A stretch of DNA of 33,979 nt from an uncultured Clostridia bacterium (GTDB lineage: Bacteria; Bacillota; Clostridia; Christensenellales; CAG-917): contig CANDBZ010000009.1 in assembly GCA_947383095.1 (NCBI GenBank), forward strand, positions 1 to 33,979, written 5' to 3'. Shown in pieces: positions 4,856 to 29,277 of this stretch (the first letter of the stretch is position 1; each line of letters opens with the position of its first letter). The notes below the pieces were generated by a model that ran no database searches, had not been told where the DNA came from, and saw nothing but the letters and a program-made list of their open reading frames with translations. The translations under genes and the position numbers were made by a program.

Positions 4856-4868
4856 AAATTTTCAAAAG

Positions 4869-4897
4869 AAAAACGCGCTCATGCGAGCGCGTTTTTT
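4869..4897. terminator. Bidirectional terminator between convergent genes
   Basis: A 7-bp stem CGCGCTC/GAGCGCG (4874-4880, 4885-4891) with an ATGC loop is flanked by five A (4869-4873) and six T (4892-4897). It can therefore stop the small membrane protein gene on the plus strand and the giant lipoprotein gene on the minus strand, whose stop lies 9 nt away. Confidence 0.88.
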
Positions 4898-4905
4898 GTT
4901 TTGCT

Positions 4906-7900
4906 TTATTGCTTGGTGAAAGTTGCGTTATACACGTCGTCGCCGAAACCTCCCGAAAGATGCATTGCAATCGTGCCGTTATCGTTCAACGTTGCGGTGT
5001 TCTCACCGTCGTCATATGCTGCGAAATCGCTCAACGTAGCAACGTTTCCGCTTATGGTATAAGTGAAGCTATATGTTCCGTTATACGTGCCCGCACCCTT
5101 TCCGTCAAAGATAATGGTGTTGGAGTCTGAAGTATAAGTGCCGGCAAACGCGTCGAGAGTCTCCTCGACAACCTTTTCGAGCGCGACCTCATCGCCATCG
5201 GCTACCACGCAATAAACTGCGCCTTCTTTGAGATAAATTTCTACAGAGAAAGGATATTCAGACGACACCGTGAACGTATAACCGCCGCCGCTGCGCAAAG
5301 CGAGATCTGTGCAATCAGCTTCCGCTCCGTCATATCCGTACTCATACTTGACGCCGTCCGCTGTAATAATGAGTTTATCCCCACCGTATGTGCCCGGAAT
5401 TTTCCACGTGCCGATATACTCGTCCGCGATCACGACAGCATCTGACGCACTTTCCTTGGTATAAGTGGCATTGACGCTCGAAAAACCATCAGAATCCTGT
5501 GACTTCACCGTCATTGTGCCGTCGTTCTCAAGCGTGCAGGTCCAATCCTCCCAGTTTGCAGAGAAAGTTGCAACGTTACCCGTAAAGGTATATTTGACGT
5601 TCTTGTCAAATATGCTGGATGAAGTTTCCATATAAACGTTCACCATGCCGAAGCCGTCGAAAGTCAAGATATATTTATTAGAGGCGTCAGTCGGAGGATT
5701 CCACTTGCCCGTGAAAGCGTCGCCTTGTGCCTTGGATACCGTGAACGCAGGATAATCGCTGTCCCCGTCCGTCCAATTTACTGTCAGCGTTCCCGAAGCA
5801 GGCGTACCTGAAATCGTGAAATTAAAGATAGACGCTGTAAAAGTTACGCTTCCGTTTGCGCCGACGGTATAAGTCATTTCAACGGGACCGCTGCCGTTGT
5901 TGAACGTGCCCTTGCCGAAGCCGTCGAAATAGAACGTCATGGTCACGCCCGCGCTTGTAGAGCCCGTCCAGCCGCCCTTGAAAGCGTCCTCCTCAACTAC
6001 GGGTTCCGCAGCGGAAACAAAGCTCTTTTCGGAGTCGACACCGGAAAGATGAAGCGTCGCGACGACCTTGCCGCCCTCGACCACAAAGCTTGCGGTGTCA
6101 TATCCGTTGAGATAATTATACATTTTATAGCTCAATACGGTGCCGTTCCAATTCGCGGTAAACGTGCCGGTGAGGTCGCCCAGCTTGAACGTGCCGTTTT
6201 CAACGTTGATAAAGAGATATTCGTTTTCGTCGGCTTCGTTCTTCCACCAGCCCGCGTTTGCGCCTGTGAAGTCGTTTATCTTCGTATCGACGGTTGCGCC
6301 GTCAAGAAGATATGCCGTGCCGTCCTCCGCAAGCAGAACGTCCTTATCCTGCTGCAAAGTCCAGATCTTGTCAACGCTGCTGTAAACGCCCTCTATCGTC
6401 ACCGTGCCCGCCGTAACGTCTACGGTATACGTGCCGATATAGGTGCTGTAAGAATTGGCATACACCGCGCCGCCGTAGCCGTCGAGAGTCAAAGTATAGG
6501 ACGACGTCGAGTTGAGTTGCTTATACATGCCGGCATACCCATCCGCCTCGAGAAGAGTGAACGTATTATCGGTGAAGTTGAGCTTTGCTCCCGACTCGCC
6601 GATCACGACGATATCCTCGCCGACCAAATAATAACCTTGGTCTGTCGCGCCGCCGACTACCGTGCCGCCTACACCGCCGAAGCCGTCGAGTTCCATAGTG
6701 AACGCATTGCCATCAATGGTGCCCGTATAAGTGCCGCGCTCTGCGCCCGCAAACTCGAATTTGTAGGAGTTGACTATCTTGATCGCATACTCGGTCTCAT
6801 CAAAGGTCAACGTGACAATGGAGCCATCTGCGACCTCGCCCGTTATCGTTGCATAGCCGTAAACCTGCTCTTCCATGTTGGCGTATACCCACTGCTCATC
6901 GCTGCCGACGACGTGCTTGTAGAGATATACGTTGCCGCAGGAGTAAGACGCTTGCACGCTCGAGTCCTTTACCCACAAGCCTTTATAGCCGTTTTGGATA
7001 TTGCCTACGTTATCCGTAGTGACGATATTGCCTTTTTCGTCGAACGCGACGGTCATCTCGTTTACTGTGGTTTGAGAATCGCTGATTACATAAACAAGCT
7101 TATAAGCCGATCCTTCCGCGATTATTCTCGCATATTGCTTGCTGCCGTTGAAGTCCGTCACGATACCGCCGTCGGTCACGACCAATTTCGTGCCCGCACT
7201 GTCCTTGACGTAAGTGCCTGCGAAATCGCACGCGGCGCCCTTTTCAAGCATATAGTCGCAGACGATCAGGTCCTCGTATTCGTCAAAGTATTTGTACGTC
7301 ATCGCAAGCTTGTCGCCAAGCGCAACGATCGTCCAGGTCTTTGAGCTCAAGCATGCGCCGTTTGCGATCGTGATCGTTCCGTTTTGAAGCGTAAACGTCT
7401 GTCCCAGTATGCGGTTGCCCACCGTGATCAAAGGCGTACCGTCGCTCTTTTGCGTGAAGAATACGGACATCTTGTTTTCGTCGTCCGCAAACGTGCCCGT
7501 GTAGCTGTCTTCGTTTGCATAATAAGCGGTGAAGGTCATATCGTCGGTGACGACAAGGTCTTTTTCCGCCTTGACGCCCGCTTCGCTCCAGAAGCCGACA
7601 AACGTAAATTCATCCTTGTTGAGCGTGGAGGGAATGAAGCCCGACGGTATCGTAGTCGCCCCCCCCTGCACTTTATCGAGAGCCTTCTCGACCGTATCCA
7701 TACCGTCGCAGACGAACGTCAGATAATACGTCGTCCTTGTGAACTGCGCCACAAACGTGGTCGACGCGTCAAAGGTCATGTCCTCGACAAACTCCGTCGT
7801 GCCCGCAAACCAACCGTCAAAGCTGAAGCCCTTCTTCGTCGGGTCTCCGGGAATGTCGCTGTCTGCAAGGGCCGCGTCCTTGTCTATAGTCACCTGCTTG

Positions 7901-10038
7901 ACGACTTCGTTGCCGTTTTTGAAGACGATGTTGACCGTTGTCTCCACAACCTCTTTGGTGTAGGTCTTGGATTTGTATGTGAGAGTGTTGCCATCGAAAG
8001 TAATGGCATCTTCTTTCATTGTACTCCCAGTACCAGCCGGGCTCATTTTATAATTTACAAAAAGCAATCCATCTTTATCCACAAGTTTAGCATAGAAATA
8101 TCCGCCCGTACCAGTCTGACCAAATTGACCGAGTATTCCGCTGTCAGTAATCATGAAAATATTTTGTTCATCACACTTCCATGTTCCAGCATATTGAGCG
8201 AAAGCAGGGTCAGCATTGGCTTTTGTAAGAGTATAATTAGTCCTACTGTAAACCATATTTATTTTTTCGCCGTCGCCAGTTGCAATAAGATTGTTGGTGG
8301 CAGTACCTGAAACAATACCTGAATTCGTATCGAATGTGAAATTGTCTCCTTTGAATCCGCAACCCCATGCTATAAGCTTATTGTCATCGACGGTGAGTAT
8401 CATTGATACTTTGTTAGTTTCGTCGATATATGCGCCTGCAAAATCCTCAATCGTGACATCGGGGGTCGGCGTATTGACAGCCGAAAGCGTCACATCAACA
8501 TAGCCGCCGTTATCCTTGAGTTGGATTGTGCCGTCACCGTTTATCGTTAGCGTTTTTCTGTCACCGTAATTGTCCAAGCAGGTGAGTTTTTTCTCTGTCT
8601 CGTCATACTTGACGGCAATCCAATCTTTATACTCTCCGTTGGACTGGCTGTCACATTTGAATTGGGTTGCGTCAATTATGATGTCATACGTCATCGCAAA
8701 CCAACCGCTGCCACCCGTTCCGTTCCAATGACCGTAGAATTCCGCGGGAACCGCTATCGGGTCGGTGCCCAGAGGCTCGACGAGCTTCGCCGCGTCGTCG
8801 CTGCCCACTTTGTACATGAGCTGCGTACCGTCAAAGTAAATCTGCGCCTCAAAAGGCGAGGTGTATTCGCCGGGATAGCAAGCCTTGACAGTGTAGCCGC
8901 CGCCCTGACGCGCGCTGACGCCCGTAATGATAGCGGTGCTGTAGTCCTTTATTTCAATAGAGTTTGCGGTGATCGTGACCGTCTTGATGGGGTTGGAGCC
9001 CTCAACCTCGTACGTACCGACGAATTCCTGCGCAAAGGAAGGAGCTTGCCATACCGTCAAGGTGTAGATCGTGCCGTTCAACTCCAGGCACCAGCCGCGA
9101 TACGTGTCGTTGACAAGCATATATGTCTTGCCGCTTGCGGTGAACGTCCAGGCGTCGTCCTCGAAGGTCGTATCTTCGATCTCAACGTCCGTTTCGCCGA
9201 CTTTGATCTTATCCGCGGATATGATGACGCTTATAGGCGCTTTTGACGGATTTTCCGCAAAATACGTGTTACGCAACGCCGCAGGGAAGCTGCGGGTGAA
9301 CTTTGCCGTGACCGTAGCGGTTGCCGCCGCAACGTAATTCTCCGTGACCTTTGTCGTGCCGATATACCAGCCGTCAAAGGTTGCGTCGCCCGTGGGTGCG
9401 GTCGGGTCGGCAGGAATTTGCTGCGCGGTCAAAGCCGTGTCCTTATCCACCGTCAACGTGGCAACGGTCGTATCTCCGTTTTTAAATGTGAGCGTGACCT
9501 GCTGCTGCTGTATGGGGCTGAACTTCGCAGTTGCGGTGACGTTGCCTGCGACGGTATAGCCCGCCGTGACCTTCGTCGTGCCGACAAACCAGCCGTCAAA
9601 CTTCTGTCCTGCGGGAGCGGTCGGGTCGGCAGGTATCTGCTGCGCGGTCAATGCCGAATTCTTATCAACGGTGACCGTACTGACGGTCGTTTCTCCGTTC
9701 TTGAATACGACGGAAGCTTGCTCCGCAGTGACGGGCTCGTATTTAGCGGTCGCCGTGACGTTGCCGGTCACCTTATAACCGGCCTCCACCTGCACCGACT
9801 CTATAAACCAGCCCTTGAATTCCTGTCCTGTTTTTGTAGGCGCCGCCGGGATCTGTTCCGCCTTGAGCGCCGTACCGCTGTCCACCGTAACGGTATCGAC
9901 AGTGGTCGTTCCGTCCGCAAAAGTGACGGTATATTGCTTTGGTTTTTGACCGTCGTTGCACGCGACGAGGACGCTCATCGTCATCGCCAGCACAAGGACT
10001 ATAGCCAAAATCGCAAGACTGACCTTCCTTTTGTTCAT
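4906..10038 (-). CDS. Giant InlB B-repeat lipoprotein (1710 residues)
   Basis: A surface lipoprotein of unknown ligand. The start at 10038 is chosen for the AGGAGA ribosome site about 8 nt before it; a Met 12 codons upstream lacks one. The signal peptide ends in the lipobox LVAC with Cys27. Three Listeria/Bacteroides-type B-repeats follow (about 35-243; motif T.TF..G......V..G......P..P...G..F.GWF...), and two more occur at about 699-840. The regions in between and after (about 245-695 and 840-1710) are built of loosely repeated beta-rich modules of the form FxGxW ... DGFG/DGYG ... YT.xGNxVTL ... DGTM, which I cannot assign to a named family. B-repeats are known as beta-grasp-like spacers on surface proteins. 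The gene has its own promoter and sits just past the terminator of the opp operon. It contains a G8 tract and a low-GC stretch (see findings). Confidence 0.9.
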   Translation of the reverse strand: MNKRKVSLAILAIVLVLAMTMSVLVACNDGQKPKQYTVTFADGTTTVDTVTVDSGTALKAEQIPAAPTKTGQEFKGWFIESVQVEAGYKVTGNVTATAKYEPVTAEQASVVFKNGETTVSTVTVDKNSALTAQQIPADPTAPAGQKFDGWFVGTTKVTAGYTVAGNVTATAKFSPIQQQQVTLTFKNGDTTVATLTVDKDTALTAQQIPADPTAPTGDATFDGWYIGTTKVTENYVAAATATVTAKFTRSFPAALRNTYFAENPSKAPISVIISADKIKVGETDVEIEDTTFEDDAWTFTASGKTYMLVNDTYRGWCLELNGTIYTLTVWQAPSFAQEFVGTYEVEGSNPIKTVTITANSIEIKDYSTAIITGVSARQGGGYTVKACYPGEYTSPFEAQIYFDGTQLMYKVGSDDAAKLVEPLGTDPIAVPAEFYGHWNGTGGSGWFAMTYDIIIDATQFKCDSQSNGEYKDWIAVKYDETEKKLTCLDNYGDRKTLTINGDGTIQLKDNGGYVDVTLSAVNTPTPDVTIEDFAGAYIDETNKVSMILTVDDNKLIAWGCGFKGDNFTFDTNSGIVSGTATNNLIATGDGEKINMVYSRTNYTLTKANADPAFAQYAGTWKCDEQNIFMITDSGILGQFGQTGTGGYFYAKLVDKDGLLFVNYKMSPAGTGSTMKEDAITFDGNTLTYKSKTYTKEVVETTVNIVFKNGNEVVKQVTIDKDAALADSDIPGDPTKKGFSFDGWFAGTTEFVEDMTFDASTTFVAQFTRTTYYLTFVCDGMDTVEKALDKVQGGATTIPSGFIPSTLNKDEFTFVGFWSEAGVKAEKDLVVTDDMTFTAYYANEDSYTGTFADDENKMSVFFTQKSDGTPLITVGNRILGQTFTLQNGTITIANGACLSSKTWTIVALGDKLAMTYKYFDEYEDLIVCDYMLEKGAACDFAGTYVKDSAGTKLVVTDGGIVTDFNGSKQYARIIAEGSAYKLVYVISDSQTTVNEMTVAFDEKGNIVTTDNVGNIQNGYKGLWVKDSSVQASYSCGNVYLYKHVVGSDEQWVYANMEEQVYGYATITGEVADGSIVTLTFDETEYAIKIVNSYKFEFAGAERGTYTGTIDGNAFTMELDGFGGVGGTVVGGATDQGYYLVGEDIVVIGESGAKLNFTDNTFTLLEADGYAGMYKQLNSTSSYTLTLDGYGGAVYANSYSTYIGTYTVDVTAGTVTIEGVYSSVDKIWTLQQDKDVLLAEDGTAYLLDGATVDTKINDFTGANAGWWKNEADENEYLFINVENGTFKLGDLTGTFTANWNGTVLSYKMYNYLNGYDTASFVVEGGKVVATLHLSGVDSEKSFVSAAEPVVEEDAFKGGWTGSTSAGVTMTFYFDGFGKGTFNNGSGPVEMTYTVGANGSVTFTASIFNFTISGTPASGTLTVNWTDGDSDYPAFTVSKAQGDAFTGKWNPPTDASNKYILTFDGFGMVNVYMETSSSIFDKNVKYTFTGNVATFSANWEDWTCTLENDGTMTVKSQDSDGFSSVNATYTKESASDAVVIADEYIGTWKIPGTYGGDKLIITADGVKYEYGYDGAEADCTDLALRSGGGYTFTVSSEYPFSVEIYLKEGAVYCVVADGDEVALEKVVEETLDAFAGTYTSDSNTIIFDGKGAGTYNGTYSFTYTISGNVATLSDFAAYDDGENTATLNDNGTIAMHLSGGFGDDVYNATFTKQ
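9301..9940 (-). repeat. Tandem InlB B-repeat units in the giant lipoprotein
   Basis: Three repeat units of about 70-73 codons lie in tandem at the N-terminal end of the 1710-residue lipoprotein. The DNA is still similar between units: the stretch beginning GTCGGGTCGGCAGG occurs at 9401 and again at 9620, a 219-bp (73-codon) period. This indicates fairly recent duplication. Confidence 0.75.
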
Positions 10039-10135
10039 AGTTATATCTCCTTTTATGTAGAATATCTTTTTCATTGCGCGGATACCTTATTAGTATTTTA
10101 CAAAAACGGGTATACTTGCGCCTATTTTATTGTTT

Positions 10136-10165
10136 ATTTTAACCCCGCTCGACAACGCGTGTCAA
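10136..10165 (-). promoter_or_regulatory. Promoter of the 1710-residue lipoprotein gene
   Basis: On the minus strand a perfect TTGACA (10160-10165) is followed after 18 nt by TAAAAT (10136-10141). This gives a leader of about 90 nt before the ATG at 10038. A perfect TATAAT also exists upstream (10180-10185), but its best -35 is 19 nt away. The gene is therefore probably transcribed independently of the operon that ends at 10269. Confidence 0.65.
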
Positions 10166-10268
10166 ATCATTTTTTCGTTATTATACAAAAAATTGCATTT
10201 TATCTTTCAAAATTTGCAAAATTATGCGAAAAATCCGCGGAACATTCAATAATAATTTATTTTTATAC

Positions 10269-10297
10269 AAAAGCGGAGCGCAATGCGCTCCGCTTTT
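10269..10297 (-). terminator. Terminator at the end of the opp/lipoprotein operon
   Basis: A nearly perfect 13-bp stem AAAAGCGGAGCGC/GCGCTCCGCTTTT with a 3-nt loop lies 16 nt past the stop of the 1516-residue lipoprotein gene. It is followed on the minus strand by an AT-rich tract. The stem is symmetrical, so it may work in both directions. Confidence 0.85.
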
Positions 10298-10312
10298 ATA
10301 CGTTGAATACGA

Positions 10313-13300
10313 TCATGCCTTTATCATCGTGCCGCTGTACGAATATTCTCCGCGCATCATTGTAAACGCAAAGCTGTCGTTCTCGTTATTGTAAACCATT
10401 GTGAAATCAAAATCCAAGTTGTTATAGCTTCCGCTCGCCGTCAAGGTGTTTGTCCAAGGGTCATACGATGCGGCGAAATCATGTCCGTCGTAGGTCAATA
10501 CTCCCGCGACCGCGATAGAAACGGTGCATTGAGCGCCCTCCGTGCCCATGCCGACGCCCGTTATCTTACCCGTCCATTCGCCGCAAAGCGCCGCGGGAAT
10601 TACCTCGGTAATGTCGCCGCCCAACGTCAGCGCAACGCTTTCATTGCCGTATTTGAGCACGCGCGTTTGCGTATTGAAATAATAATCCGTTCCGTCAATG
10701 GCAAAGATGACTTGGTTTATGCCGTCGTAAATGGATTTAAACGGCTCGCCCTTATATGTTCCCGTCATATCCGCGCGCAGATTGAACACCACCGCGGTGC
10801 CGTCGGACTCCTCGCCGGTATGGCTTCCCACTATTTCGGCTGGAAGCGCGGGCGGATTCATCGATCCATTGTAGCCTTCCTTATAGAAAGACATTTCGTC
10901 CGCCTGATATCCGAAGTCGCGGCTGTACACCACCTTTTTGTCGTAGTAGAAAATCAAATTGGCATGCTGCGTTTCGTTGAAATCCACGCCGACGCCGGTC
11001 GCGTTCTTTGTATAATACCCCCAGCCTGTGCCGTTCATGCCCGACCAATTATATCTGTACTCCTGATAATCGTAGCTGTAGTATATCAATGTTGCGCCGC
11101 CGAAGCCGTCCAATACAAGCTTATAATACTTCTTGATAAACAGATCCATCCTATCCGGCGCTTGAGTGCCGTCCTCCTGCCACAGATTTACTTTCACCGT
11201 TTTATCGTAATACCACACTCCCCGGTACTCGTCGCCTTCGACGTCGGTAACGACGTTATCGGCGGCTTTTGCGGCGGTATAGTCAAATGCAAACAGCTCG
11301 TCGTCGTCCATGAATGCGATCACAAGATTACCTTTCACCTTATATTCGCCGGACAGCTCGCCTATTTTAATGCCGCCTATTCCGTTCAGAGTCAGGGCTT
11401 TGCCGTTGCGGGTATAATCGCCCGCTTCCGCGCCTATAACATGGATGGAATAAATGGGCCTTGTATAGTAGGCGTTTTGCTGCGCAAGATACTTCACTCC
11501 GTCAATGGTGACGACCGTGTCCGCCTCGAAAGTTCCGCTTATGCTTGCGGAAGGCTGATAAATGCCGTTTTTCATCAAATATACTCTGCCGTTGTACTTG
11601 AACACCACGTTTCTGATGTCTTTATCAATCACATAGCCGCGCATATCCGTATCCTTCACCGATATATCGTCTTCTATGCCCACCAATATGACGTTGCGCA
11701 CCGCGCCGCGGTTGTAAACGCCGTGCAGAATGTCCGCGCTTTCGTCGTACGTCAACGTGGATATATATCCGTCCACGCTAAATCTCAATACGTTGCCGAA
11801 GGCGTAATACACGCCTCGCGTGACGCTCAAGCCCGTCAATATCTCCGCCGAACCGTCCGCATAAAAACAAATATGATAAACATCCTGATACGCCGGGTCG
11901 GAGCTGCTTAAATAGGATATCGCGTATTTGCCTACAAACGGCTTGTCGGAATAGTCCGGAGCGCCCATTTTGCTGAAGACTCCGTCTATAGACTCAACGC
12001 CGTTTTTGCCTACAAAGTTTAACGTGACGGTAAAGTCCTCTTCGTTCACGGTGATCGTCATCGATGAAAAATACTCCGTCAACGCGCCGCCCGTCACGCT
12101 CAATACGTTGGCGGTGTTTTCGATAAACGTGCCGCTTATCGTCTCCGTGCTTATCCTTGCGCTATTGAGCGAAACTCTGTCGTTGCTGAAGGTTATCACG
12201 TCGCCCGTAGCGGAATAATACTCGCCGAAGTACTTAAGCTCCGTTCTTGTAAAGGTATACGGGATTTCGCCCGTAATGCCCGCGTCCATCAAAAATTCGA
12301 ACGTGTCGCCGGATATCGTGCCGCTCACGTCGCCCGTGCTGCCGAAAAACTCTATGAGTATATGCACGCCGTCGGTCCTATAGACGCCGTTGGTAGTGCT
12401 GCTGCTTACCCACTTGCACGTGCCGTCGTCCATAAGCTGTATCACGCCGGCCGGCCTCGTCTCATGGAAATTCGATTCTCCCGCATATAGACCTGCGATC
12501 CCGCTCAAATCCTGCCAACGCGCCGTAAACTCGATATTCTTGAATACGGGCATATAGAACCTATAACGCACGTTTGCGGCGTATTCCCAATCGAAAAACA
12601 CGCTGCCTGCTTTCTTTGCGGGAGCGTCCAATTCTCCCAATATGCCGTAAAACTCGTACGCCGCCGTATTCGCCGACAGACTTGTCTTCACGCCCGCATT
12701 ATCTAGCGTAACCGTCGCTTCGTTGCGGATATCCTTCGCGCGCACGCTAGTGGGCACAAATCCGTCCGTCCAGCTCTGTCTGTCCCAATTGAGCGTGTTA
12801 ATTGCCCATGTAATATCGGGATCCTCCGCAAGCTCCGTTCCGAGCATGTTTCTGTTTTGCGCGCCGCGCAGCGAAGCCTTATAATAGCTGTTGACGACCG
12901 CCACGCCCGCCGAATAGGACATCTCGTAATTGTCGCTCGACGCATATCCGATCAAGCCGCCCATATAACTCGAATACACTGAATTTGTAGGCTTGAGGGC
13001 GCTCACCGTGCCGACGTACACGCTGTCCATGATAAGAGCGTCCGAGGTGCAGGTGCCGATAAGTCCGCCCGCCCATGATGAAAGCTCCGTAGCGGTGGCT
13101 TTCACGCGCATAGTGCTTATACAGTTGATGACGGACACGCCCTCGCTGTATATCTGGCCGACAATGCCGCCTGACGCCTGACCGCCGCCTATCTCGCCCG
13201 CCGTTGCGCTGTTGATAATACTCGCCGCGTTACTCGAGTTGTAAATCCAGCCGTGCAAGCCGCCGACAACGGAGGCCTCCAAGGTAGGTTTAGTATCGTC

Positions 13301-14863
13301 GTCTTCAAACGCGCCGGCAATAATGTTTACGTTTGCATAGCAGTTTTCAGTGAAATATACCTGCGCCAGACCGTCGTTGCCATACGCCTCCCAACAGCCT
13401 ACAAGTCCGCCGATCGCGGACGCGTTGGCTTTGTACAGCCTCGCCTCCAAGGTACCGCTGACGCTCACGCCGACGAAGCTTGTCTTTTTGGCGTATCCCG
13501 CAACACCGCCGAAATACGTCCCTATAGTATCTACGTCCGCGCCGCTCTCCACGATATAATGTATATTCTCAAAGGATACGTTCTTTATCGTCGCGTTGTT
13601 CGTAATGCCGAAAAAGCCTGCGTACACCCTCCCGGAGCGCGCCGCTCTCTTTATCCTGACATTGCTTATTTTATGACCCGCGCCGTCAAAAACGCCCTCG
13701 AAGAACGCGTTTACGGTAATATTGTTGCCGTCTTCGTCCTCATAAGTCGTTATCGCGCCTACGGGCGTAAAGCCGCTTGCGAGCGAACTCATGTCGATAT
13801 CCTGACCGAGGCGGAAATATGACTTGTAAAAGTCCTTGTTGGCCTCGACCTGCGGCGCGTTCACTCTGGCGGAAAAATTTAATATATCGTTTGCCGTCCA
13901 CAGCACGTACGGATCGTCCTGCGTGCCCTTTCCCGTCATAGAGGTCGGGATCGCCGCCTCCCATTTGGCGATAAGCGTGATATCGCTTGCGATAGGCGTA
14001 TCGAAGTCAAACTCAATCCCGTGCAACGTCCAGCAAACAAACCTGAAGTTTTCGCGCGTCGGGCTTGCGGGCTCCATAGCCGTCTCGCCCTTTGGCACGG
14101 ATTGCGCAGGGGTGTTGACGCCGTCTCCGCCGAAGCTCACAGTGAATACGTTCTGCTCCCATTTCGCAAGAAGCGTAATGTTGCCCGTAACAGGCGTATC
14201 GAAATCAAACTCCGTTCCGTTAAACGTCCAGCATACGAAAGCATATCCCGTTCTCGTGGGATTTGCGGGCTTTTGCGCTTTCACGGTCGCGCCCTCTTCG
14301 ACAACGGCCGTCTTGATGACCTTGTTCTCTTCTTCGCTCCTGAACACGACGTTGAAGGTCGTCGCCGGCTCCCACTTTGCAAGAAGCGTGATATTGCCGG
14401 TGACGGGCGTATCGAAATCGAACTCCGTTCCGTTCAACGTCCAGCACACGAAAGCGTATCCCGTTCTCGTGGGATTTGCGGGCTTTTGCGCTTTCACGGT
14501 CGCGCCCTCTTCGACAACAGCCGTCTTGATGACCTTATTCTCTTCCTCGCTCCTGAACACGACGTTGTACTTCGCCGCCGCAGGCTCCCATTTGGCAACA
14601 AGGATAATATCCTTCGTGACAGGCGTGTCAAAGCTGAACGGCTCGCCGTCCAGCTCCCATCCGACAAAATTATAATCGTCGCGCACGGGATCGGTTACAG
14701 GCGTAGCTGTCTTGCCTTCCTCAACGGATTGCGCTGGAATATTCACGCCCTCTCCGCTGAACTGCACCCTGTAATATTTGGTATTATTGCATGAAGCAAA
14801 CGAAACGCAGGTTACCGCCACAAGCAAAACTGCCAAAATTGCTATAAATATCTTCTTTTTCAT
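10313..14863 (-). CDS. B-repeat/beta-helix giant lipoprotein (1516 residues)
   Basis: A surface lipoprotein, the last gene of the probable operon. The start at 14863 (MKKKIFIAIL) has a GGGAGA ribosome site 8 nt upstream; the frame is open 14 codons further but without one. The lipobox FASC gives Cys25. Four B-repeats cover about 29-306; units two and three are almost identical (period 71 residues). The motif TGKGTQDDPYVLWT at about 308 opens a GLUG-type right-handed beta-helix region to about 700, with FDGAGHKISNV and repeated GGLIGxxx/GGIVGxxx turns. A divergent B-repeat follows, then beta-rich modules with LNGIGG and LDGFGG motifs like those in its two large paralogues. GLUG and B-repeat regions are known from adhesins and secreted peptidases; the ligand here is unknown. 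It begins 38 nt after the stop of the upstream lipoprotein gene. Confidence 0.9.
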   Translation of the reverse strand: MKKKIFIAILAVLLVAVTCVSFASCNNTKYYRVQFSGEGVNIPAQSVEEGKTATPVTDPVRDDYNFVGWELDGEPFSFDTPVTKDIILVAKWEPAAAKYNVVFRSEEENKVIKTAVVEEGATVKAQKPANPTRTGYAFVCWTLNGTEFDFDTPVTGNITLLAKWEPATTFNVVFRSEEENKVIKTAVVEEGATVKAQKPANPTRTGYAFVCWTFNGTEFDFDTPVTGNITLLAKWEQNVFTVSFGGDGVNTPAQSVPKGETAMEPASPTRENFRFVCWTLHGIEFDFDTPIASDITLIAKWEAAIPTSMTGKGTQDDPYVLWTANDILNFSARVNAPQVEANKDFYKSYFRLGQDIDMSSLASGFTPVGAITTYEDEDGNNITVNAFFEGVFDGAGHKISNVRIKRAARSGRVYAGFFGITNNATIKNVSFENIHYIVESGADVDTIGTYFGGVAGYAKKTSFVGVSVSGTLEARLYKANASAIGGLVGCWEAYGNDGLAQVYFTENCYANVNIIAGAFEDDDTKPTLEASVVGGLHGWIYNSSNAASIINSATAGEIGGGQASGGIVGQIYSEGVSVINCISTMRVKATATELSSWAGGLIGTCTSDALIMDSVYVGTVSALKPTNSVYSSYMGGLIGYASSDNYEMSYSAGVAVVNSYYKASLRGAQNRNMLGTELAEDPDITWAINTLNWDRQSWTDGFVPTSVRAKDIRNEATVTLDNAGVKTSLSANTAAYEFYGILGELDAPAKKAGSVFFDWEYAANVRYRFYMPVFKNIEFTARWQDLSGIAGLYAGESNFHETRPAGVIQLMDDGTCKWVSSSTTNGVYRTDGVHILIEFFGSTGDVSGTISGDTFEFLMDAGITGEIPYTFTRTELKYFGEYYSATGDVITFSNDRVSLNSARISTETISGTFIENTANVLSVTGGALTEYFSSMTITVNEEDFTVTLNFVGKNGVESIDGVFSKMGAPDYSDKPFVGKYAISYLSSSDPAYQDVYHICFYADGSAEILTGLSVTRGVYYAFGNVLRFSVDGYISTLTYDESADILHGVYNRGAVRNVILVGIEDDISVKDTDMRGYVIDKDIRNVVFKYNGRVYLMKNGIYQPSASISGTFEADTVVTIDGVKYLAQQNAYYTRPIYSIHVIGAEAGDYTRNGKALTLNGIGGIKIGELSGEYKVKGNLVIAFMDDDELFAFDYTAAKAADNVVTDVEGDEYRGVWYYDKTVKVNLWQEDGTQAPDRMDLFIKKYYKLVLDGFGGATLIYYSYDYQEYRYNWSGMNGTGWGYYTKNATGVGVDFNETQHANLIFYYDKKVVYSRDFGYQADEMSFYKEGYNGSMNPPALPAEIVGSHTGEESDGTAVVFNLRADMTGTYKGEPFKSIYDGINQVIFAIDGTDYYFNTQTRVLKYGNESVALTLGGDITEVIPAALCGEWTGKITGVGMGTEGAQCTVSIAVAGVLTYDGHDFAASYDPWTNTLTASGSYNNLDFDFTMVYNNENDSFAFTMMRGEYSYSGTMIKA
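14166..14594 (-). repeat. Near-identical tandem B-repeat units (213 bp period)
   Basis: Units beginning at 14166 and 14379 are almost the same at the DNA level, including a long shared stretch around GTGGGATTTGCGGGCTTTTG. They encode 71-residue B-repeats that differ at only a few residues. A third, more diverged unit begins at about 14595. The similarity implies recent duplication or ongoing gene conversion. Confidence 0.85.
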
Positions 14864-14901
14864 AAGCTTTTTCTCCCGCCTGAACGGCTTATCGCATAGG
14901 C

Positions 14902-17900
14902 TCACGCCTCAATAAGCCAAATGGCTTTGCCGCCGTCCTCGGTCTCGAATTTGATCGCGCCGTCCACGGCTTGGAAGCTGATATCATATACAAGAGTATA
15001 TTCAAAATGAGTGCCGTCGCCCTCTGCGTCGGGCACGCGCTCGTATGAATAAATACCCCAATCGTCATCGCCTTCCATGCGATAGGTATACCTTATCTCG
15101 TCGCTTACGGCTTCACCGTTTGCGTCGATATCCGTAAACGTCGCCGCCGCCAGCAAATAGCTGTTTTTGCTCGACCCGTCTATGACAAGCTTCACGGATT
15201 TATCAGCATTGTAATACACGCCCATGAGCTCGTCGGGAATGTATGCGACGTTATACGGCTCAAGCGTGCCGGACGAACCCGCTCTTGCAATGATCACGGT
15301 GTTTTCATCCATATAAACGAGATAGCACACAAGCGACGACATGTCGGAAACATATACGGATAATGTGTTGTTCGTAACCTGCGACAGCACTACGGAGACG
15401 CCGTTCCACGTGCCTTGCGCAACGCCGTCCTTATCAAGCATATTCGTACAATCGAGCTCAAACGGGCCGTCAGTGCCGAAAACCGTATAGACCTTGCCGA
15501 GTATGTCGTTGTAAACGCCCAAAGCGCCCGCTTCTTCGCCGCTTGCGTCGGAAAGAGTCATAGTCGCAATATCGAGCGTATAAACCGTTCCGCCGTCGGC
15601 GTTTGTGATAACGACCGCGCCGTTTTCGCCGCTTATGGTGTATTTATACTCATGCGCAGCTCCGTTTGCGTCAGTCATAGTCACGATTCCGACGCCGCTG
15701 TTGCCTCTGCCGTCAAAAGATATACGCTTGAAACCCGCGCCCTGCCAATCGTTTTCGCTCAATTCGTCGGGTCGCGAGAACACGGTCTCCTCGCCGTCGG
15801 TCTTCACGACGATATCGCTACCGTCGCCTGCGACCGTATAAGTTTTTTCATTGTAAACAAACGTAGCCGTCGCCGTATCTCTGTCATACGTGTATGCGAC
15901 TACGCTCACCTTCCCGCCGTCCGTCACTGTGAGCTTGCCGCTCACGTCCCAAACCGTGCCTGTCGTGGGAGAAGTAAAATGGATAAAATACGCTCCGTTT
16001 CCGTTGAAATCCAGCTTCATGCCGCTTGCGCTGTTCCACACGCCGTAGAATTTATCCGTAAACGTCATCTGATAATCGTCGACAAGCATTCCCGAGCCGG
16101 GCGTATACATTGCCATAGCAAGTATCGTAGCACCCTTGTCGGACGGCGGCACAGCGTTGCCGAAGCCGTAATTGGAGGTTCTGTAATAAATATTTAGTCC
16201 GTCGCCGTCGGGATTGTACACATACGTGAACTGAATGCCGTAGCTGTCGTAGCCCACGCCGTATCCGTCTTTATTTATGCCGAGCAAAACAAACTGATAC
16301 TCTATTTCAAATTTTTCCGTCCACGTGCCGATGAAGCTGCCTTCTCTGCCCATAACGAGGGTTTTTCCGTCATATTCGACAACCAAATAGCCGTTTTCGT
16401 TGAAATAGGCCGAAAGTCCGTCGGATACGAGACGTCCCTCTTCGACGGAATAAACAAAGGATCTATTGCCGATCTTCGCAGTGTTTACGCCGTCTATACG
16501 CAAAACGGTACAGTCGTTGTAATCGCTCTCCCATACGCCGTTGAATTCGTCGTATTTAGTGATGGACAGCGTCGATCCGTCGCTTGTGGACATCGTCAGA
16601 CCGTCGTCGCTCAATCTTGCGGATACGACGCGGTTGCCTATCTTGAGCGTGACACTTCTGTTGACGATTTCATAGGTGAATTGGTTTCCGTTTGAAATTG
16701 CGCCCGTTCCGTCCGCGTTGAAGGTATATACCGTCGTCTGACCCTGCGTATACCAATCGCCCAGAATGCCGTTGTCTCTTATCGCATTTATTTTGTTGCG
16801 CGTTTGCTCCAGCGTTCCGCCAAAGAACTCGCCGTCATAAATAGACAGTCCGTTTTCTGTAAATTCGACGTAAAAATCACGGTATGCGTTATATTCCGAA
16901 GTGGAAAGGTTAAAGCCGAGATATACGAAATATGCGTCGTGCACAACCGCTCTTTCGCCGTTGAAAACGTACATATAATACGAGCGTTTTCCGTCGCCGA
17001 GCATCGTCATCATGCCATTATCGTCAAACGTAAGCTTGACGTCGGTAGTACCGATAAGCGTATAAAACTCGCCTTGCATTTTGGAGTAATCCGCAAATCC
17101 GACGTAGATCGTCACGTCATGCCCCGTGAGCATAAACGACGCGGGAACGCGACGCGTATGCGCCTCGTCGAGGAAATAGCCGTAAGATATATCGCCGTTG
17201 TCCGCAGTCAGAGTGTTGAAGCCGTCGCCCTCGAAAATATAAGACACGGGCAGATAGGAATACAGCAAGCTTTGCGAATTGCCCATATCCTCTATCATTT
17301 TATCGAGCGTGACCTCGCTGTGGTCGTTGTACGCGGAGCCGAACTTAAACGTCACGTTCATCTTCACGGTGCCTATTCCCGTCGCGTCGGGACAGATTCT
17401 GCCATCTGCGGAGGTCCACTCCGTAGCAGCCCAATCCATAAGCGCCAAAACGTCGCTCAACTTTGAAACGTCATAGGTTGCTCCGCCTGACTCAACAGTG
17501 TTGCCGCTTGCATAAACGTTGTTTATAAACAATGTCGAAAATTGATCGACGTTTGCATAATCGTTATCTCGCACAAGACCGGCTATGCCGTACCATTGCG
17601 ACGTAGAAGCGCCCGAAGCGCCGCCCTTTACAGAGCTCAAGCAATAAGCTACCGTATTCTCGTTATACGTCTCGCCCACAATACCGCCTACTATGGGATT
17701 TTCGGTCTCGCCGTTCACTCTCAACGTGCCGGTCGCTATACAGTTGTCTATCGACGCGAGCTCTCTCATGAAGCCGACTATGCCGCCGGCTCTTCGCGTC
17801 AAGCCCTCTATCCGTACGTTCGCCGAGCAGTTGTAGACGTTTGAAACGGAAATACTGCCCAAACCGACCATCGCGCCGACCACGCCGCCGATCGAAGTCA

Positions 17901-19692
17901 TCTCCTTCGAGCCGGAGGACATTATCTCCGCGTCTACGGAGCAATACGAAACGGTAGCGGTATACGCGTCGTCCAACGTTGAGCCTTCGCCCTGCATAAA
18001 GCCGACGATACCGCCCGCCATAACGCTCAAAGAGGACACGTCCGCGTCGTTGACGATCTCTATAGAGCCGTTAAACACGCAACCTATAACGTCCGATGCG
18101 AAATTGTATCCCACAATTCCGCCGACAAACTTTGCGCTGTCCGTCGCGAAGACGTCTATCTGCGCCTCTACGGCGAGGTTCTTTATGACCGCATAGTTGA
18201 TAAAGCCGAAAAGACCCGCGACCTGATAATCGTCGGACAGATTGAAGTTTTTCACCATATGTCCGTTGCCGTCGAACGTACCTCTGAACATCGTGTTGAG
18301 ATACATGTTGGCGCCGGTGCCTATCGGGTCGACGATTTCGCCCTGCAGATCGATATCCGCGGCAAGCTTCACGTAGGCCGTGTTAAATTTTTCATCGGCA
18401 TTGTTATTCACGCCGTCGGTAAAGGTCTTAAGTTGAGAAGCGGTCGATATTATATACGGGTCAAACTCCGTGCCGCGTCCCGTCATGGGCGTGTTGTCGC
18501 GAGACAGCCCCGATATAGAAACCGTGACCTCTCCGCTAACCACGAAGGAATACACCCCGTTTGCGTCGGACTGCACCGTTTCCACGCCCGCAGTCACAAC
18601 GGGAACGCCCGTAAAATACGGCGATATTTTGACCTTAAAGCTTATTTTCGTCCCCAGATCGGCGCTGCCGGGAGCCGCGCCGTCAAACACAAACTTTGCG
18701 CTGCCGTCGTTGCCGTTATTCCAATGTATAGCGACCGGACGTCCCTCGATGGGCTTCCATTTGGCGATCAGCACTATGCTGCTTTGGATTTTCGTGCCGA
18801 AATCAAACGCAGTATCCTCGCCCTCCAACGCCCAATACAAAAACTCGCAGTTGGTTTTCGTGGGAGCGACGGGCTCGACCACCTGCCCGTTCAACACGGT
18901 GCGCACAACGTCGGGTTTGCCGTTATCGTACTTATACGTCACCGTAACGGACGCTTCCTCGTCTTTTTGCCAGATAGCGACCAAAACTATGTCGCCGTCG
19001 ATTTTCGTATTGAAATTGAAGGGAGCGTTTTCGCCCTCCACCGCCCAATAGGCGAATTTGAAATTCGTTTTTGTCGGCGCAGACGGTTCCTCGACCTGCC
19101 CTCCTATATTGACAGCGACGTTCCTGTCGGGTTGCCCGTTGTCGTATTTGAAAGTGACGGTCGCGGGAGTCGCTTCTTTCCATTTTGCCGTAAGCACGAT
19201 ATTTGCCGTCAAGGTCGTATTGAAATCATATTCCGCGTCGCTTCCTTTAAGCGTCCAATATTCGAAAACATGATCTTCCTTTGATGGATCTGCCGGCTTC
19301 ACGGCTTTGCCGCTCTCGACGACGTCGACCTTATAAACCTGGTTTTCGCCGAGCTCAAACGTGACGGAAAATCCCCACTTCGGCACAAGCGTGATGTTTT
19401 GCGTTATCTTCGTGTCGAAGTCAAACGGGTCGCTTTGCCCCTCCAACGTCCAATACAAAAACGTATTGCCGTCCTTTGTCGGATTTGAAGAAGGCTCTTC
19501 GACTATTCCGTTCTTGTCGGTTTTTACCTCGACGGTGGTACGTTTTCCTCCGCCCAACTCCGCGTACACGAACGTCACCGTTTTCTCTTTCGTTTTATCG
19601 CACGCAGCAAGAGCAAAAACGGACGCGGCGCAAAGCGTCAGTATGAGCAGCGCCGCAAGAAATTTTTTAAAATTGCTCTGTACGTTTTTCAT
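14902..19692 (-). CDS. B-repeat/beta-helix giant lipoprotein (1596 residues)
   Basis: A surface lipoprotein with the same architecture as the next gene. An AAGGAG ribosome site lies 7 nt before the ATG. The signal peptide ends in LAAC with Cys31. Four B-repeats cover about 37-307 (F.YW.LEG....FDF.T.I...I.L..KW). A spacer leads to TGRGTEFDPYIIST at about 400, which opens a GLUG-type beta-helix to about 750 (FDGNGHMVKNF, then repeated VGGIVGYN and AGGIVGFM turns). The C-terminal half (about 770-1596) is a series of beta-rich modules with FNGVW, FIGTW and FDGRG motifs. It starts 11 nt after the oppF stop, which ties it firmly to the importer operon. The role is unknown; capture of a polymeric or peptide substrate for the importer is an inference from position. 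Confidence 0.9.
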   Translation of the reverse strand: MKNVQSNFKKFLAALLILTLCAASVFALAACDKTKEKTVTFVYAELGGGKRTTVEVKTDKNGIVEEPSSNPTKDGNTFLYWTLEGQSDPFDFDTKITQNITLVPKWGFSVTFELGENQVYKVDVVESGKAVKPADPSKEDHVFEYWTLKGSDAEYDFNTTLTANIVLTAKWKEATPATVTFKYDNGQPDRNVAVNIGGQVEEPSAPTKTNFKFAYWAVEGENAPFNFNTKIDGDIVLVAIWQKDEEASVTVTYKYDNGKPDVVRTVLNGQVVEPVAPTKTNCEFLYWALEGEDTAFDFGTKIQSSIVLIAKWKPIEGRPVAIHWNNGNDGSAKFVFDGAAPGSADLGTKISFKVKISPYFTGVPVVTAGVETVQSDANGVYSFVVSGEVTVSISGLSRDNTPMTGRGTEFDPYIISTASQLKTFTDGVNNNADEKFNTAYVKLAADIDLQGEIVDPIGTGANMYLNTMFRGTFDGNGHMVKNFNLSDDYQVAGLFGFINYAVIKNLAVEAQIDVFATDSAKFVGGIVGYNFASDVIGCVFNGSIEIVNDADVSSLSVMAGGIVGFMQGEGSTLDDAYTATVSYCSVDAEIMSSGSKEMTSIGGVVGAMVGLGSISVSNVYNCSANVRIEGLTRRAGGIVGFMRELASIDNCIATGTLRVNGETENPIVGGIVGETYNENTVAYCLSSVKGGASGASTSQWYGIAGLVRDNDYANVDQFSTLFINNVYASGNTVESGGATYDVSKLSDVLALMDWAATEWTSADGRICPDATGIGTVKMNVTFKFGSAYNDHSEVTLDKMIEDMGNSQSLLYSYLPVSYIFEGDGFNTLTADNGDISYGYFLDEAHTRRVPASFMLTGHDVTIYVGFADYSKMQGEFYTLIGTTDVKLTFDDNGMMTMLGDGKRSYYMYVFNGERAVVHDAYFVYLGFNLSTSEYNAYRDFYVEFTENGLSIYDGEFFGGTLEQTRNKINAIRDNGILGDWYTQGQTTVYTFNADGTGAISNGNQFTYEIVNRSVTLKIGNRVVSARLSDDGLTMSTSDGSTLSITKYDEFNGVWESDYNDCTVLRIDGVNTAKIGNRSFVYSVEEGRLVSDGLSAYFNENGYLVVEYDGKTLVMGREGSFIGTWTEKFEIEYQFVLLGINKDGYGVGYDSYGIQFTYVYNPDGDGLNIYYRTSNYGFGNAVPPSDKGATILAMAMYTPGSGMLVDDYQMTFTDKFYGVWNSASGMKLDFNGNGAYFIHFTSPTTGTVWDVSGKLTVTDGGKVSVVAYTYDRDTATATFVYNEKTYTVAGDGSDIVVKTDGEETVFSRPDELSENDWQGAGFKRISFDGRGNSGVGIVTMTDANGAAHEYKYTISGENGAVVITNADGGTVYTLDIATMTLSDASGEEAGALGVYNDILGKVYTVFGTDGPFELDCTNMLDKDGVAQGTWNGVSVVLSQVTNNTLSVYVSDMSSLVCYLVYMDENTVIIARAGSSGTLEPYNVAYIPDELMGVYYNADKSVKLVIDGSSKNSYLLAAATFTDIDANGEAVSDEIRYTYRMEGDDDWGIYSYERVPDAEGDGTHFEYTLVYDISFQAVDGAIKFETEDGGKAIWLIEA

Positions 19693-19703
19693 CGTAAACT
19701 CCT

Positions 19704-20867
19704 TTAGCTCTCCGCAGACTCTTCCGTTTCTTCTATCTCATCCTGCGGATAGAGGTGGCAGGCGACGTAATGTCCGTTGCCGTAATCCTTGAATTGAGGC
19801 TCCACTTCGCAACAAATATCCATGCATTTGCTGCATCTGGTGTGGAACTTGCATCCTCTCGGCGGATGCGCGGGCGACGGAATGTCGCCCTCCAATATGA
19901 TGCGCTTTATTTTTGTATCCGGATCCGGTATGGGCACCGCGGAGAAAAGCGCTTCCGTATACGGGTGCATCGGATTGGAAAACAGATCCGTCTTGGAGCC
20001 GAATTCCACCATATTGCCCAAATACATGACCCCGACCTGATCGGATATATGCTCCACGACGGACAAGTCGTGCGATATAAACATATACGCGAGGTTGTCC
20101 GACTCCTGCAGATCCTTAAACAGGTTTATCACCTGCGCCTGTATGGACACGTCAAGCGCGCTTACAGGCTCGTCGCAAATTACAAGCTTGGGCTTGAGCG
20201 CAAGCGCTTTTGCGATGCAGATACGCTGACGCTGTCCGCCCGAAAACTCATGCGGATATCTTTCAAAATAATGAGGCTGCAATCCGCACTTGAGCATTAT
20301 ATCTACTATATAATCCTTATAATCGGCTTTTGAGACGATTTTATGCGTTTTGACCGCCTCTCCGACGATTTCGCCCACCGTAAGTCTCGGCGAAAGCGAG
20401 GAATACGGATCCTGAAAAATCATTTGAAAATGCGGGCGCATTTTTCTCAACGCTTCGCCCTTGATATTCTCGATATGCTTCCCGTCGAATATTATCTCGC
20501 CGGCAGTCGGCTCATAAAGCCGCAATATCGTCCTGCCCAGCGTTGTCTTGCCGCAGCCGGACTCGCCGACTATACCGATCGTCTCGCCCTGCTTGAGGTT
20601 GAAGGAAACGCCGTCCACGGCTTTGAGGTATACGTTTTTCTTCTTGTTGAAATACGTCTTTATTGGAAAGTATTCCTTGAGGTTTTTCACCTGCAACAAA
20701 TACTGCTCGCCCGACGCGTCGCACGTCGCGCCCGACGGACAGGAAGCGCAGCTTCCCGTGCAATAATCGGCGGACGGAGTCTCTATCTTGCTTTCCGGCG
20801 CTATGACGGCGTCGGAAGCTTCCTCGTTCATAAGTTTTTCTATCTCGGTACGGGTGGTTTTGCTCAT
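19704..20867 (-). CDS. oppF: Oligopeptide ABC transporter ATPase OppF
   Basis: One of two ATPases driving peptide import. Walker A GESGCGKT (101-108), Q-loop [10 protein letters not shown] (Q152), signature FSGGQRQR (208-215), Walker B LVICDE (228-233) and switch His266 are all intact. The C-terminal oligopeptide/dipeptide domain has [12 protein letters not shown] and a cysteine cluster (C339, C345, C348, C352/C353, C370), which in some relatives binds an iron-sulfur cluster. Unusual is an N-terminal extension of about 55 residues holding four cysteines in C-x3-C-x2-C-x5-C spacing (C36, C40, C43, C49). At 387 residues it is longer than the usual 310-330. It starts inside the oppD stop (ATGA overlap) with a strong GGAGGGTGA ribosome site. 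Confidence 0.95.
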
Positions 20868-22297
20868 TCTTCACCCTCCTTTTTTTGCAGATCCTGATAT
20901 CTGTGACATGCCACGAAGTGCGTAGGCGACACCTGCACCATTTCCGGATAGTCGCCGCGACACGCGTCGCAACGCATATCGCATCTGTCTTTGAAATAAC
21001 ACGTAGACAGCATGTTTATGGGATTGGGCACGTTGCCGGGAATGCTGTACAGTCTGTCGACCTCTTTGCCAACGACGGGCTTGCTCTTTTGCAAACCGAT
21101 CGTGTAAGGATGAAGAGGATTTTTGAAGATCTCTCTGACGGTACCCTTCTCCACGACTCTGCCCGCGTACATGACCACGACGTAATCCACCATTTCCGCA
21201 ATGACTCCGAGGTCGTGCGTGATAAGCATTATGCTGCCGCTTATCTTGTCCTTGACCTCGCGCAGCAAATCGAGTATCTGCGCCTGTATCGTGACGTCGA
21301 GCGCCGTTGTAGGCTCGTCGGCGATTATCAGCTTCGGATTGCAGCACAGCGCCATAGCTATCATCACGCGCTGTCTCATGCCGCCCGACAGTTGGTGCGG
21401 ATAAGATTTATAAACGTGCTCCGGCATCGCTATACCCACAAGCTTAAGCATCTCTATGCTGCGCCTTTTCGCCTCGTATTTATCTGCGCCGCCGACATGC
21501 AACAAAGTCACCTCGTCCAACTGATAACCTATAGTAAACACGGGATTGAGGCTTGTCATAGGCTCCTGAAAAATCATTGCGATTTCCCTGCCTCTTATCG
21601 ACGACATGTCGGATATGGGCATTTTTGCTATATCAAACACTTCCTCGTGCTCTTCGTATTTCTTCTTAAACCTCGGATTGCCCCTTTTGTTTAAAGCCTG
21701 CACCATGACGGGATTGCCGTCCTCGTCGAGGACGGGAGTACCGTCGTCGTCAAGCTCTTCGATCATGACGGGTTCCATGCTGACCTTTTCGAACTTCGGC
21801 TTCCCGTTTTTATCCACAGCCTGCTTGAGCACGGGATTGCCGTCCTCGTCAAGCACGGTGTTGCCGTTTTCGTCCTTGACCTCTTCCATGATCGGCTGCG
21901 GGTCGGCGGGAGTGCGCACCGTGGAACGGAAGCGGATGCTTCCGCTGACGATCTGTCCCATGGGACCCTGCACAAGCTGCATGAGCGACAGGCTTGTGAC
22001 GGATTTGCCGCAGCCCGATTCGCCCACGACGCCGACCGTAGAGCCTTGCGGGATATCGAAGGACACGCCGTTGACTGCCTTCACCACGCCGTTATCCGTA
22101 AAGAAATACGTGTGCAGATCGTCAAACTCCACGATATTGCGCGGGTCGCGCATTTCGGTGACATAATCCTCGCGCTTGTACGCCTTGCGTTTGCGCTGCA
22201 ATTCCTTTATCGTGCGCGTATTGCTTTTGGCAATCTCGCGCGATTCTTTTGCGGATATATAATGTTTGTTTTTCTGTTTCTTTTCTTCCTGCTTCAT
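20864..22297 (-). CDS. oppD: Oligopeptide ABC transporter ATPase OppD with a large insertion
   Basis: The second ATPase of the importer. Walker A GESGCGKS (92-99), Q-loop FQEPMTSLNP (Q244), signature LSGGMRQR (303-310), Walker B LIIADE (323-328) and H361 are intact, so it should be active. At 477 residues it exceeds the usual 330-350 because of a basic N-terminal extension of about 50 residues and an acidic insertion at about 127-218, between Walker A and the Q-loop. The insertion contains a tandem duplication with a 41-residue period, each half carrying VLDEDGNPV. The C-terminal domain has the HPYTIGL block and cysteines in YFKDRCDMRCDACRG and VACH. The ribosome site AAGGAGAT precedes the ATG, and the gene starts 3 nt after oppC. 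Confidence 0.95.
   Translation of the reverse strand: MKQEEKKQKNKHYISAKESREIAKSNTRTIKELQRKRKAYKREDYVTEMRDPRNIVEFDDLHTYFFTDNGVVKAVNGVSFDIPQGSTVGVVGESGCGKSVTSLSLMQLVQGPMGQIVSGSIRFRSTVRTPADPQPIMEEVKDENGNTVLDEDGNPVLKQAVDKNGKPKFEKVSMEPVMIEELDDDGTPVLDEDGNPVMVQALNKRGNPRFKKKYEEHEEVFDIAKMPISDMSSIRGREIAMIFQEPMTSLNPVFTIGYQLDEVTLLHVGGADKYEAKRRSIEMLKLVGIAMPEHVYKSYPHQLSGGMRQRVMIAMALCCNPKLIIADEPTTALDVTIQAQILDLLREVKDKISGSIMLITHDLGVIAEMVDYVVVMYAGRVVEKGTVREIFKNPLHPYTIGLQKSKPVVGKEVDRLYSIPGNVPNPINMLSTCYFKDRCDMRCDACRGDYPEMVQVSPTHFVACHRYQDLQKKEGEE
21659..21892 (-). repeat. Tandem 123-bp duplication inside oppD
   Basis: Codons 136-172 and 178-213 of oppD form two copies of one unit (EEVKDENGNTVLDEDGNPV... and EELDDDGTPVLDEDGNPV...). 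At the DNA level a 20-nt sequence is identical at 21708-21727 and 21831-21850, exactly 123 bp apart. The same 20-mer occurs a third time at 24471-24490 inside the insertion of oppB. Confidence 0.85.
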
Positions 22298-22300
22298 GTC

Positions 22301-23539: not shown

Positions 23540-23548
23540 ATGCACCTC

Positions 23549-25075: not shown

Positions 25076-25093
25076 ATGTTTTCCTGCCTTTAC

Positions 25094-25256
25094 GCAACGG
25101 CAGCCGTCGTTGCGCTTTTGCATTTACGCCCGCTTTACGCGCCGCGCGAAGCAAGCGTCAAAGGGCGAATAGAGCGCATATTCTACGGCAAATAATTGCC
25201 GTAGAAATACGCAGTTTGTTTATTTGGCATGTTAAGCCTGCGATTGTTATCAGGCT
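25094..25256 (-). other. Stem-loops in the oppA-oppB intergenic region
   Basis: The 174-nt gap between oppA and oppB holds three inverted repeats: AGCCTG/CAGGCT (25235-25240, 25251-25256) overlapping the oppA stop; a perfect 11-bp stem TTCTACGGCAA/TTGCCGTAGAA with a 4-nt loop (25181-25206); and GCAACGG/TCGTTGC (25094-25113). None is followed by a T-run on the minus strand. Such stem-loops are known behind binding-protein genes in importer operons, where they stabilise the upstream mRNA and lower expression of the permease genes. That role here is inferred. Confidence 0.6.
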
Positions 25257-28027: not shown

Positions 28028-28043
28028 TGTCCTCTCCTTTGCT

Positions 28044-29183: not shown

Positions 29184-29201
29184 TTTCATCACCTTGCGTC
29201 A

Positions 29202-29258: not shown

Positions 29259-29277
29259 AACGGTATTTTAATATTTA

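Follow-up and report, generated by a model that had tools for sequence, protein, structure and literature searches.

Strings of calycin-type barrels, as predicted, on three giant lipoproteins beside an opp island of an uncultured Clostridia bacterium

The long C-terminal regions of three giant lipoproteins (A, B and C) of an uncultured Clostridia bacterium carry strings of head-to-tail units (at least 6 each in A and B, at least 5 in C) for which a calycin-type fold and kinship with lipocalin-like domains and the family DUF5640 are very probable. The genes lie within a stretch of 33,979 nucleotides (contig CANDBZ010000009.1, assembly GCA_947383095.1) that was analysed at its whole length and is called the window below. 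Our best reading, on which we are evenly divided, is that the three proteins are lipid-anchored multivalent binding arms and optional companions of an island for peptide uptake. The original prediction, made from the sequence alone, of a beta-rich module shared by three lipoproteins at 4906-19692 located it correctly, as three minus-strand ORFs lie there, and its figure of over 2000 residues holds because the beta-rich stretches at the C-termini (residues 840-1722 of A, 785-1530 of B and 860-1596 of C) sum to ~2,360. The module is largely real and can already be named by family.

Gene Organisation and Protein Architecture

The genes form a row on one strand in the order BspA-type protein, 382-aa lipoprotein, oppABCDF, C, B and A, with the following features:

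29278..33927, minus strand: BspA-type leucine-rich-repeat protein with Big_2 and a hydrophobic segment near the C-terminus
28044..29192, minus strand: 382-aa lipoprotein, conserved partner upstream of oppA (Pectate_lyase_5 and Glug, weak and below cut-off)
25250..28027, minus strand: oppA-like solute-binding lipoprotein, 925 aa (SBP_bac_5)
19704..25123, minus strand: oppF, oppD, oppC and oppB, directly upstream of C
14902..19692, minus strand: lipoprotein C, 1596 aa, lipobox Cys31 (ORF list, Pfam)
10313..14905, minus strand: lipoprotein B, 1530 aa, lipobox Cys39 (ORF list, Pfam)
10136..10165, minus strand: sigma-70-like promoter match, 11/12, in the gap between B and A (consensus match alone)
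4906..10074, minus strand: lipoprotein A, 1722 aa, lipobox Cys39 (ORF list, Pfam)
4868..4897, unstranded (listed on the plus strand): terminator-like hairpin with a 13-pair stem immediately behind the stop of A

Eleven bases separate the end of oppF from the start of C, C and B overlap by 4 bases, and the stem of the hairpin behind A is flanked by A and T runs. To judge from the promoter match between B and A, A may have a transcript of its own as well. The BspA-type protein lacks its N-terminal part at the contig edge; a relative in another genome (G226) has 2531 residues and extends ~1,050 residues further on the N-terminal side.

Judging from their N-termini, A, B and C are bacterial lipoproteins, each with a signal peptide that ends in a lipobox cysteine (by eye, LVAC39 in A, FASC39 in B and LAAC31 in C). 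All three carry Flg_new (InlB-type, PF09479) repeats ahead of the barrel array, with Pfam scores for the whole proteins of 42.7 bits in A, 146.5 in B and 100.6 in C, all exceeding the cut-off of 27 bits. The repeats of A lie at residues ~48-260 and ~718-777; B has four repeats and a region (~330-720) that aligns with the GLUG-bearing region of C, and C itself combines four repeats with GLUG motifs. C and B are paralogs (26.6% identity over 792 columns, E ~1e-53), and A is more distant from them than they are from each other. Scanned whole against Pfam and NCBIfam, the three proteins returned only Flg_new (List_Bact_rpt), GLUG, DUF5640 below its cut-off and chance-level rows. In B, two adjoining InlB-type repeats (14155-14567) match at 93% of their DNA with a 213-base period and are a recent duplication.

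A Repeated Unit With a Predicted Calycin Fold

Cutting the regions at FxGxW, aligning and iterating, as had been proposed with the original prediction, led from five seeds to 27 units over A, B, C and their relatives. A unit starts with D-x-F-x-G-x-W, closes with a strand whose final residue is often Lys, and measures ~75-97 residues. Counted against 2000 shuffles per region (860-1596 for C), the motifs thought to be common to all three proteins exceed chance expectation in A and C, whereas B shows no such excess. In A, [FY]xGxW and DG[FYR]G each occur 4 times (shuffle means 0.18 and 0.11; both counts reached in 0 of 2000 shuffles), YTxxGN..T occurs twice (mean 0.00, reached by no shuffle) and DGT[MI] once (P 0.06). 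C has three copies of FxGxW (mean 0.05, reached by no shuffle) and two of DG[FYR]G (P 0.0065), while YTxxGN..T and DGT[MI] are absent from its residues 860-1596. The latter two motifs are also absent from the B array, where [FY]xGxW and DG[FYR]G occur once each (P 0.11 and 0.10) and a looser form, [FYLIV]xGx[WYF], is enriched (10 vs 3.7 by shuffles, P 0.004). The units of B are visible only at the level of profiles and structure, its membership being clear only through six profile-profile units, Pfam hits in orthologs and the structure model.

Unit A 1450-1546, modelled with AlphaFold2 from a 33-row alignment, is predicted as a beta-barrel (pLDDT 93.2, pTM 0.85) with nine strand elements, one of them of three residues. 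Foldseek matched this model at ~1.00 probability to bile-acid- and fatty-acid-binding proteins, prostaglandin D synthase and a Bacteroides lipocalin-family protein; among the matches listed, bile-acid-, fatty-acid- and retinoid-binding proteins, lipocalins and avidins took the top ranks, with E-values of 0.013 at best and an rmsd of 4-9 Å in most rows. VIA-align 2 gave Z 10.1 for a designed beta-barrel and 9.6 for streptavidin and avidin (87-92 residues, rmsd 2.6-2.8). Model and structural matches alike bear out the early guess of small beta-barrels or lipocalin-like sheets. Searches of sequence profiles against solved structures gave no significant match, the best being BT_0846 for profile A1 (E 0.057) and a LysM protein for profile A2 (E 0.059).

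One published description of calycins has a first-strand Trp latched to a Lys/Arg on the last strand (PMC2954199). As read from the alignment of 33 units, this residue pair is present here: position 9 in the first strand is aromatic in 32/33 (W 23, Y 7, F 2), and position 91, where the last strand ends, is K or R in 19 of the 28 rows that have a residue at this point, K and R together making up 5.5% overall. On the model, the unit is a closed antiparallel barrel of about eight strands with the calycin fold. No 3-10 helix, which caps the calycin barrel, was seen in the model's secondary-structure listing, which gives alpha-type helix letters and strands only. It resembles lipocalins, fatty-acid-binding proteins and avidins in the antiparallel barrel and the Trp and Lys/Arg pair, but differs from them in being shorter than most matched chains and in an identity of 5-20% in the structural rows.

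The whole B array (746 residues, 10 rows) was predicted to be nearly all beta (AlphaFold2 pLDDT 83.8, pTM 0.59). The best Foldseek E-values of this long model go to beta-propeller proteins and solenoid repeats, generic beta repeats such as DDB1 propellers and toxin repeats, as would be expected if the repeats were propeller- or solenoid-like and resembled barrels; but the TM-score of those rows is ~0.1, a barrel was predicted for the single unit and the family matches are lipocalin-like, and we regard this alternative as very improbable. Single-domain rows of note are confined to the last and the first unit of B: the last has several structural matches at Z 6.5-8.3, engineered streptavidin included, and the first matches a DUF4822 protein at Z 7.1, inside the tool's stated background range. 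D-aminopeptidase and TbpB appeared as two-domain matches. TbpB sits at the cell surface on a lipid anchor and serves a transporter, and TbpB-type lipoproteins and the C-terminal domains of D-aminopeptidase share with the arrays the presence of more than one barrel per chain; the rmsd over two domains is, however, near 11-12 Å, and the likeness noted is structural, with no sequence kinship in evidence.

Kinship With DUF5640 and Lipocalin-Like Domains

The view that the units match no named family proved wrong, by the refutation proposed with it, through one unit: scanned alone, unit C 972-1047 scores 30.6-32.0 bits against DUF5640 (PF18692, a Pfam family of unknown function whose curated cut-off is 28.5 bits), the match spanning positions 2-77 of the 85 in the profile, while protein C scanned whole stays below the cut-off at 23.8 bits. 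It is the one unit to pass among six window units scanned alone; unlike it, two of A score 17.2 and 16.3, and a further A unit, one C unit and one B unit gave no DUF5640 hit. Pfam also returned nothing for a piece of B that spans unit 988-1067. Lipocalin_4 (PF13648) matched two of the six lone units at 15.6 and 16.6 bits, both below its cut-off of 22.4. Over 33 units from the window and its relatives, DUF5640 was matched at E <= 0.05 by 20, Lipocalin_4 by 10 and the lipocalin-like DUF4923 (PF16270) by 4; in sequence the units lie nearest to DUF5640. Among ten B arrays, the GH43_C "C-terminal lipocalin-like domain" (PF16369) was found in one (E 1.1e-5), DUF4923 in one (2.7e-5) and DUF5640 in two (best 0.0043); the window's own B array had no Pfam match.

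DUF5640 also has stand-alone members in the same order, one of which (L092) reaches 93.7 bits. The best-scoring relatives are such small frames, whereas the units here stand in tandem on giant lipoproteins. Single-unit frames of 110-243 codons were seen in other genomes (L092, L098, L100, L102, L104 and L113).

A search with 14 aligned units found matches (E <= 1e-5) in 23/297 genomes of the order; those in the window's own genome were confined to the window's own contig. A first scan with protein C as query over genome contigs found no relative. The phylum-wide search for DUF5640 gave 2/299 genomes, the window's own included; the one for Lipocalin_4 gave nothing in 199 genomes and is uninformative, as its controls were likewise without a match.

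Extent of the Arrays

Alignments of orthologs were compared by hhalign with profiles from which the tested protein's own units had been left out, and probabilities of at least 50 were obtained for six regions each in A and B and for five in C, covering ~1,250 of the ~2,360 array residues. Units in all three proteins were also found with a profile of six small stand-alone relatives, and 0/105 control windows (from OppA, compared with two profiles, and from the 382-aa lipoprotein, compared with one) reached a probability of 50. The arrays and units, with hhalign probabilities, are as follows:

14905..17115, minus strand: barrel array of C, residues 860-1596 (hhalign and unit searches)
16834..17076, minus strand: unit C 873-953 (86.2)
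16576..16770, minus strand: unit C 975-1039 (97.0; DUF5640 32.0 vs 28.5 bits)
16372..16554, minus strand: unit C 1047-1107 (98.5)
15790..16059, minus strand: unit C 1212-1301 (97.0)
15565..15729, minus strand: unit C 1322-1376 (90.8)
10316..12553, minus strand: barrel array of B, residues 785-1530 (AlphaFold2 pLDDT 83.8, hhalign, Pfam hits in orthologs)
12278..12505, minus strand: unit B 801-876 (57.4)
11960..12232, minus strand: unit B 892-982 (93.4 and 93.7)
11705..11944, minus strand: unit B 988-1067 (59.8)
11219..11401, minus strand: unit B 1169-1229 (86.7)
10643..10837, minus strand: unit B 1357-1421 (77.0)
10316..10597, minus strand: unit B 1437-1530, the last (96.9; structural matches including streptavidin)
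4909..7557, minus strand: barrel array of A, residues 840-1722 (hhalign and unit searches)
7300..7512, minus strand: unit A 855-925 (66.4; 10.8 bits)
6535..6738, minus strand: unit A 1113-1180 (72.8)
6331..6543, minus strand: unit A 1178-1248 (95.5)
5764..5991, minus strand: unit A 1362-1437 (96.0)
5494..5724, minus strand: unit A 1451-1527, the modelled unit (97.6; AlphaFold2 pLDDT 93.2)
5188..5427, minus strand: probable unit A 1550-1629 (9.2 bits; absent from the hhalign list)
4954..5154, minus strand: unit A 1641-1707, the last (97.0)

The middle of A (residues 255-715, 7930-9312), flanked by its two InlB-type repeat blocks, contains FxGxW-like starts as well. The top unit hit there scores 7.7 bits, against 6.7 for the best of 300 shuffles, and the region may consist of further, very diverged barrels.

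Recurrence at opp Islands

The order C-B-A directly behind oppF was found in five genomes (G000, G020, G009, G226 and G239) from three families of the order, G020 and G009 belonging to the same genus and G226 and G239 to two other families. In a second arrangement, G300, G281, G272 and G055 have a C-type paralog immediately upstream of the BspA gene and the opp island. An A-like protein of 1823 aa follows oppF in G016, and the opp island of G187 has a weak relative of the array proteins (E 0.0047). Array proteins also occur elsewhere: C-B-A is present in G070 with no opp in the stretch read, and G060, G274 and G293 have a B relative without C or A, so that among ten genomes with strong B relatives B is not seen beside opp in these four, and in G018 the contig ends. 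At the opp islands of G006, G073, G018, G012, G213, G223 and G179 no array protein was seen; the stretches of G014 and G015 end within oppF. Relatives of OppA are found in 60/297 genomes of the order. Four of 80 named oppF loci have an array protein, three of them apparently G009, G016 and G187 again. Array proteins thus recur at the opp island, yet the partnership is optional, since none was found in the flanks read at 76 of the 80 named loci.

Conservation of the arrays bears on whether the barrels are inert spacers that lengthen surface proteins, with binding left to the InlB-type repeats or the GLUG region. Spacers would be expected to show the strong divergence among units (25% mean column identity in the A2 alignment) and the variable length of A (1722 aa here, 1041 in G020 and 1071 in G070), and the unit is small enough that any cavity may be tiny. 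However, the arrays are C-terminal, at the end most remote from the lipid anchor, with nothing beyond them for a spacer to carry, and the C and B arrays can be aligned end to end between families at ~34-40% identity, with many residues of the B array invariant among relatives. We consider inert spacers unlikely.

A Possible Role as Surface-Binding Arms

We slightly favour the arrays as multivalent surface-binding arms, with or without Opp. The lipid anchor at the lipobox would fix A, B and C outside the membrane, and the InlB-type (Flg_new) repeats would serve as a stalk, followed by the GLUG region in C and, by homology, in B, that holds the barrel array away from the membrane. The barrels would then form a multivalent head that binds peptides, glycans or small amphiphilic ligands weakly at many points. 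Such binding might keep a substrate or a surface near the co-encoded OppA, which would pass peptides to OppBCDF. We infer both the binding and the hand-over to Opp from fold, position and linkage, and that the arrays serve the Opp transporter at all appears doubtful.

The arrays might instead be adhesins for host mucus, plant fibre or neighbouring cells, their linkage to opp reflecting a shared surface regulon. The InlB-type repeats and a BspA-type leucine-rich-repeat protein in one gene row would suit this, and in one study mucin-selected phage clones resembled, among others, a Prevotella lipocalin-like-domain protein (PMC10076258), a link to the annotation only. The adjoining core is, however, a complete peptide transporter, and the recurrence of array proteins at the opp island in two arrangements also speaks against a role purely in adhesion, which we find rather doubtful. 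The reading as binding arms could be narrowed, by analogy with the surface lipoproteins that serve outer-membrane transporters in Gram-negative bacteria, to a peptide-capture rig of gut Clostridia, in which barrel strings on stalks, the BspA-type protein and Opp would together bring peptides or glycopeptides to OppA; this picture we think quite unlikely.

Novelty and Implications

The domain type is known, and its string-like use beside a transporter looks new. In the literature searched, which misses most subscription papers, we found neither the architecture of barrel-array lipoproteins nor the name DUF5640. The work returned for lipocalin-like domains with InlB B-repeats did not concern this architecture; on tandem lipocalin or calycin domains in bacterial surface lipoproteins there was, by title, only a Treponema topic, and the records on Lipocalin_4/PF13648 and on the Listeria-Bacteroides repeat with oligopeptide were unrelated by title. 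That giant lipoproteins bear the domain in tandem and accompany opp islands as optional partners likewise seems new. More than 2,000 residues of dark protein gain a named fold, and DUF5640 gains a testable setting: surface lipoproteins that display it in tandem and are encoded next to a peptide transporter. Should the barrels bind, Clostridia would be using calycin domains as multivalent surface arrays.

The neighbouring core of oppABCDF, BspA-type protein and lipoprotein (19704-33927 in the window; L192-L271) is a widespread island by itself. A relative of the BspA-type protein or of the 382-aa lipoprotein lies upstream of oppA in 28 of 42 named loci that have oppA to oppF and 3 kb or more of sequence ahead of oppA, some of them in Lachnospiraceae records.
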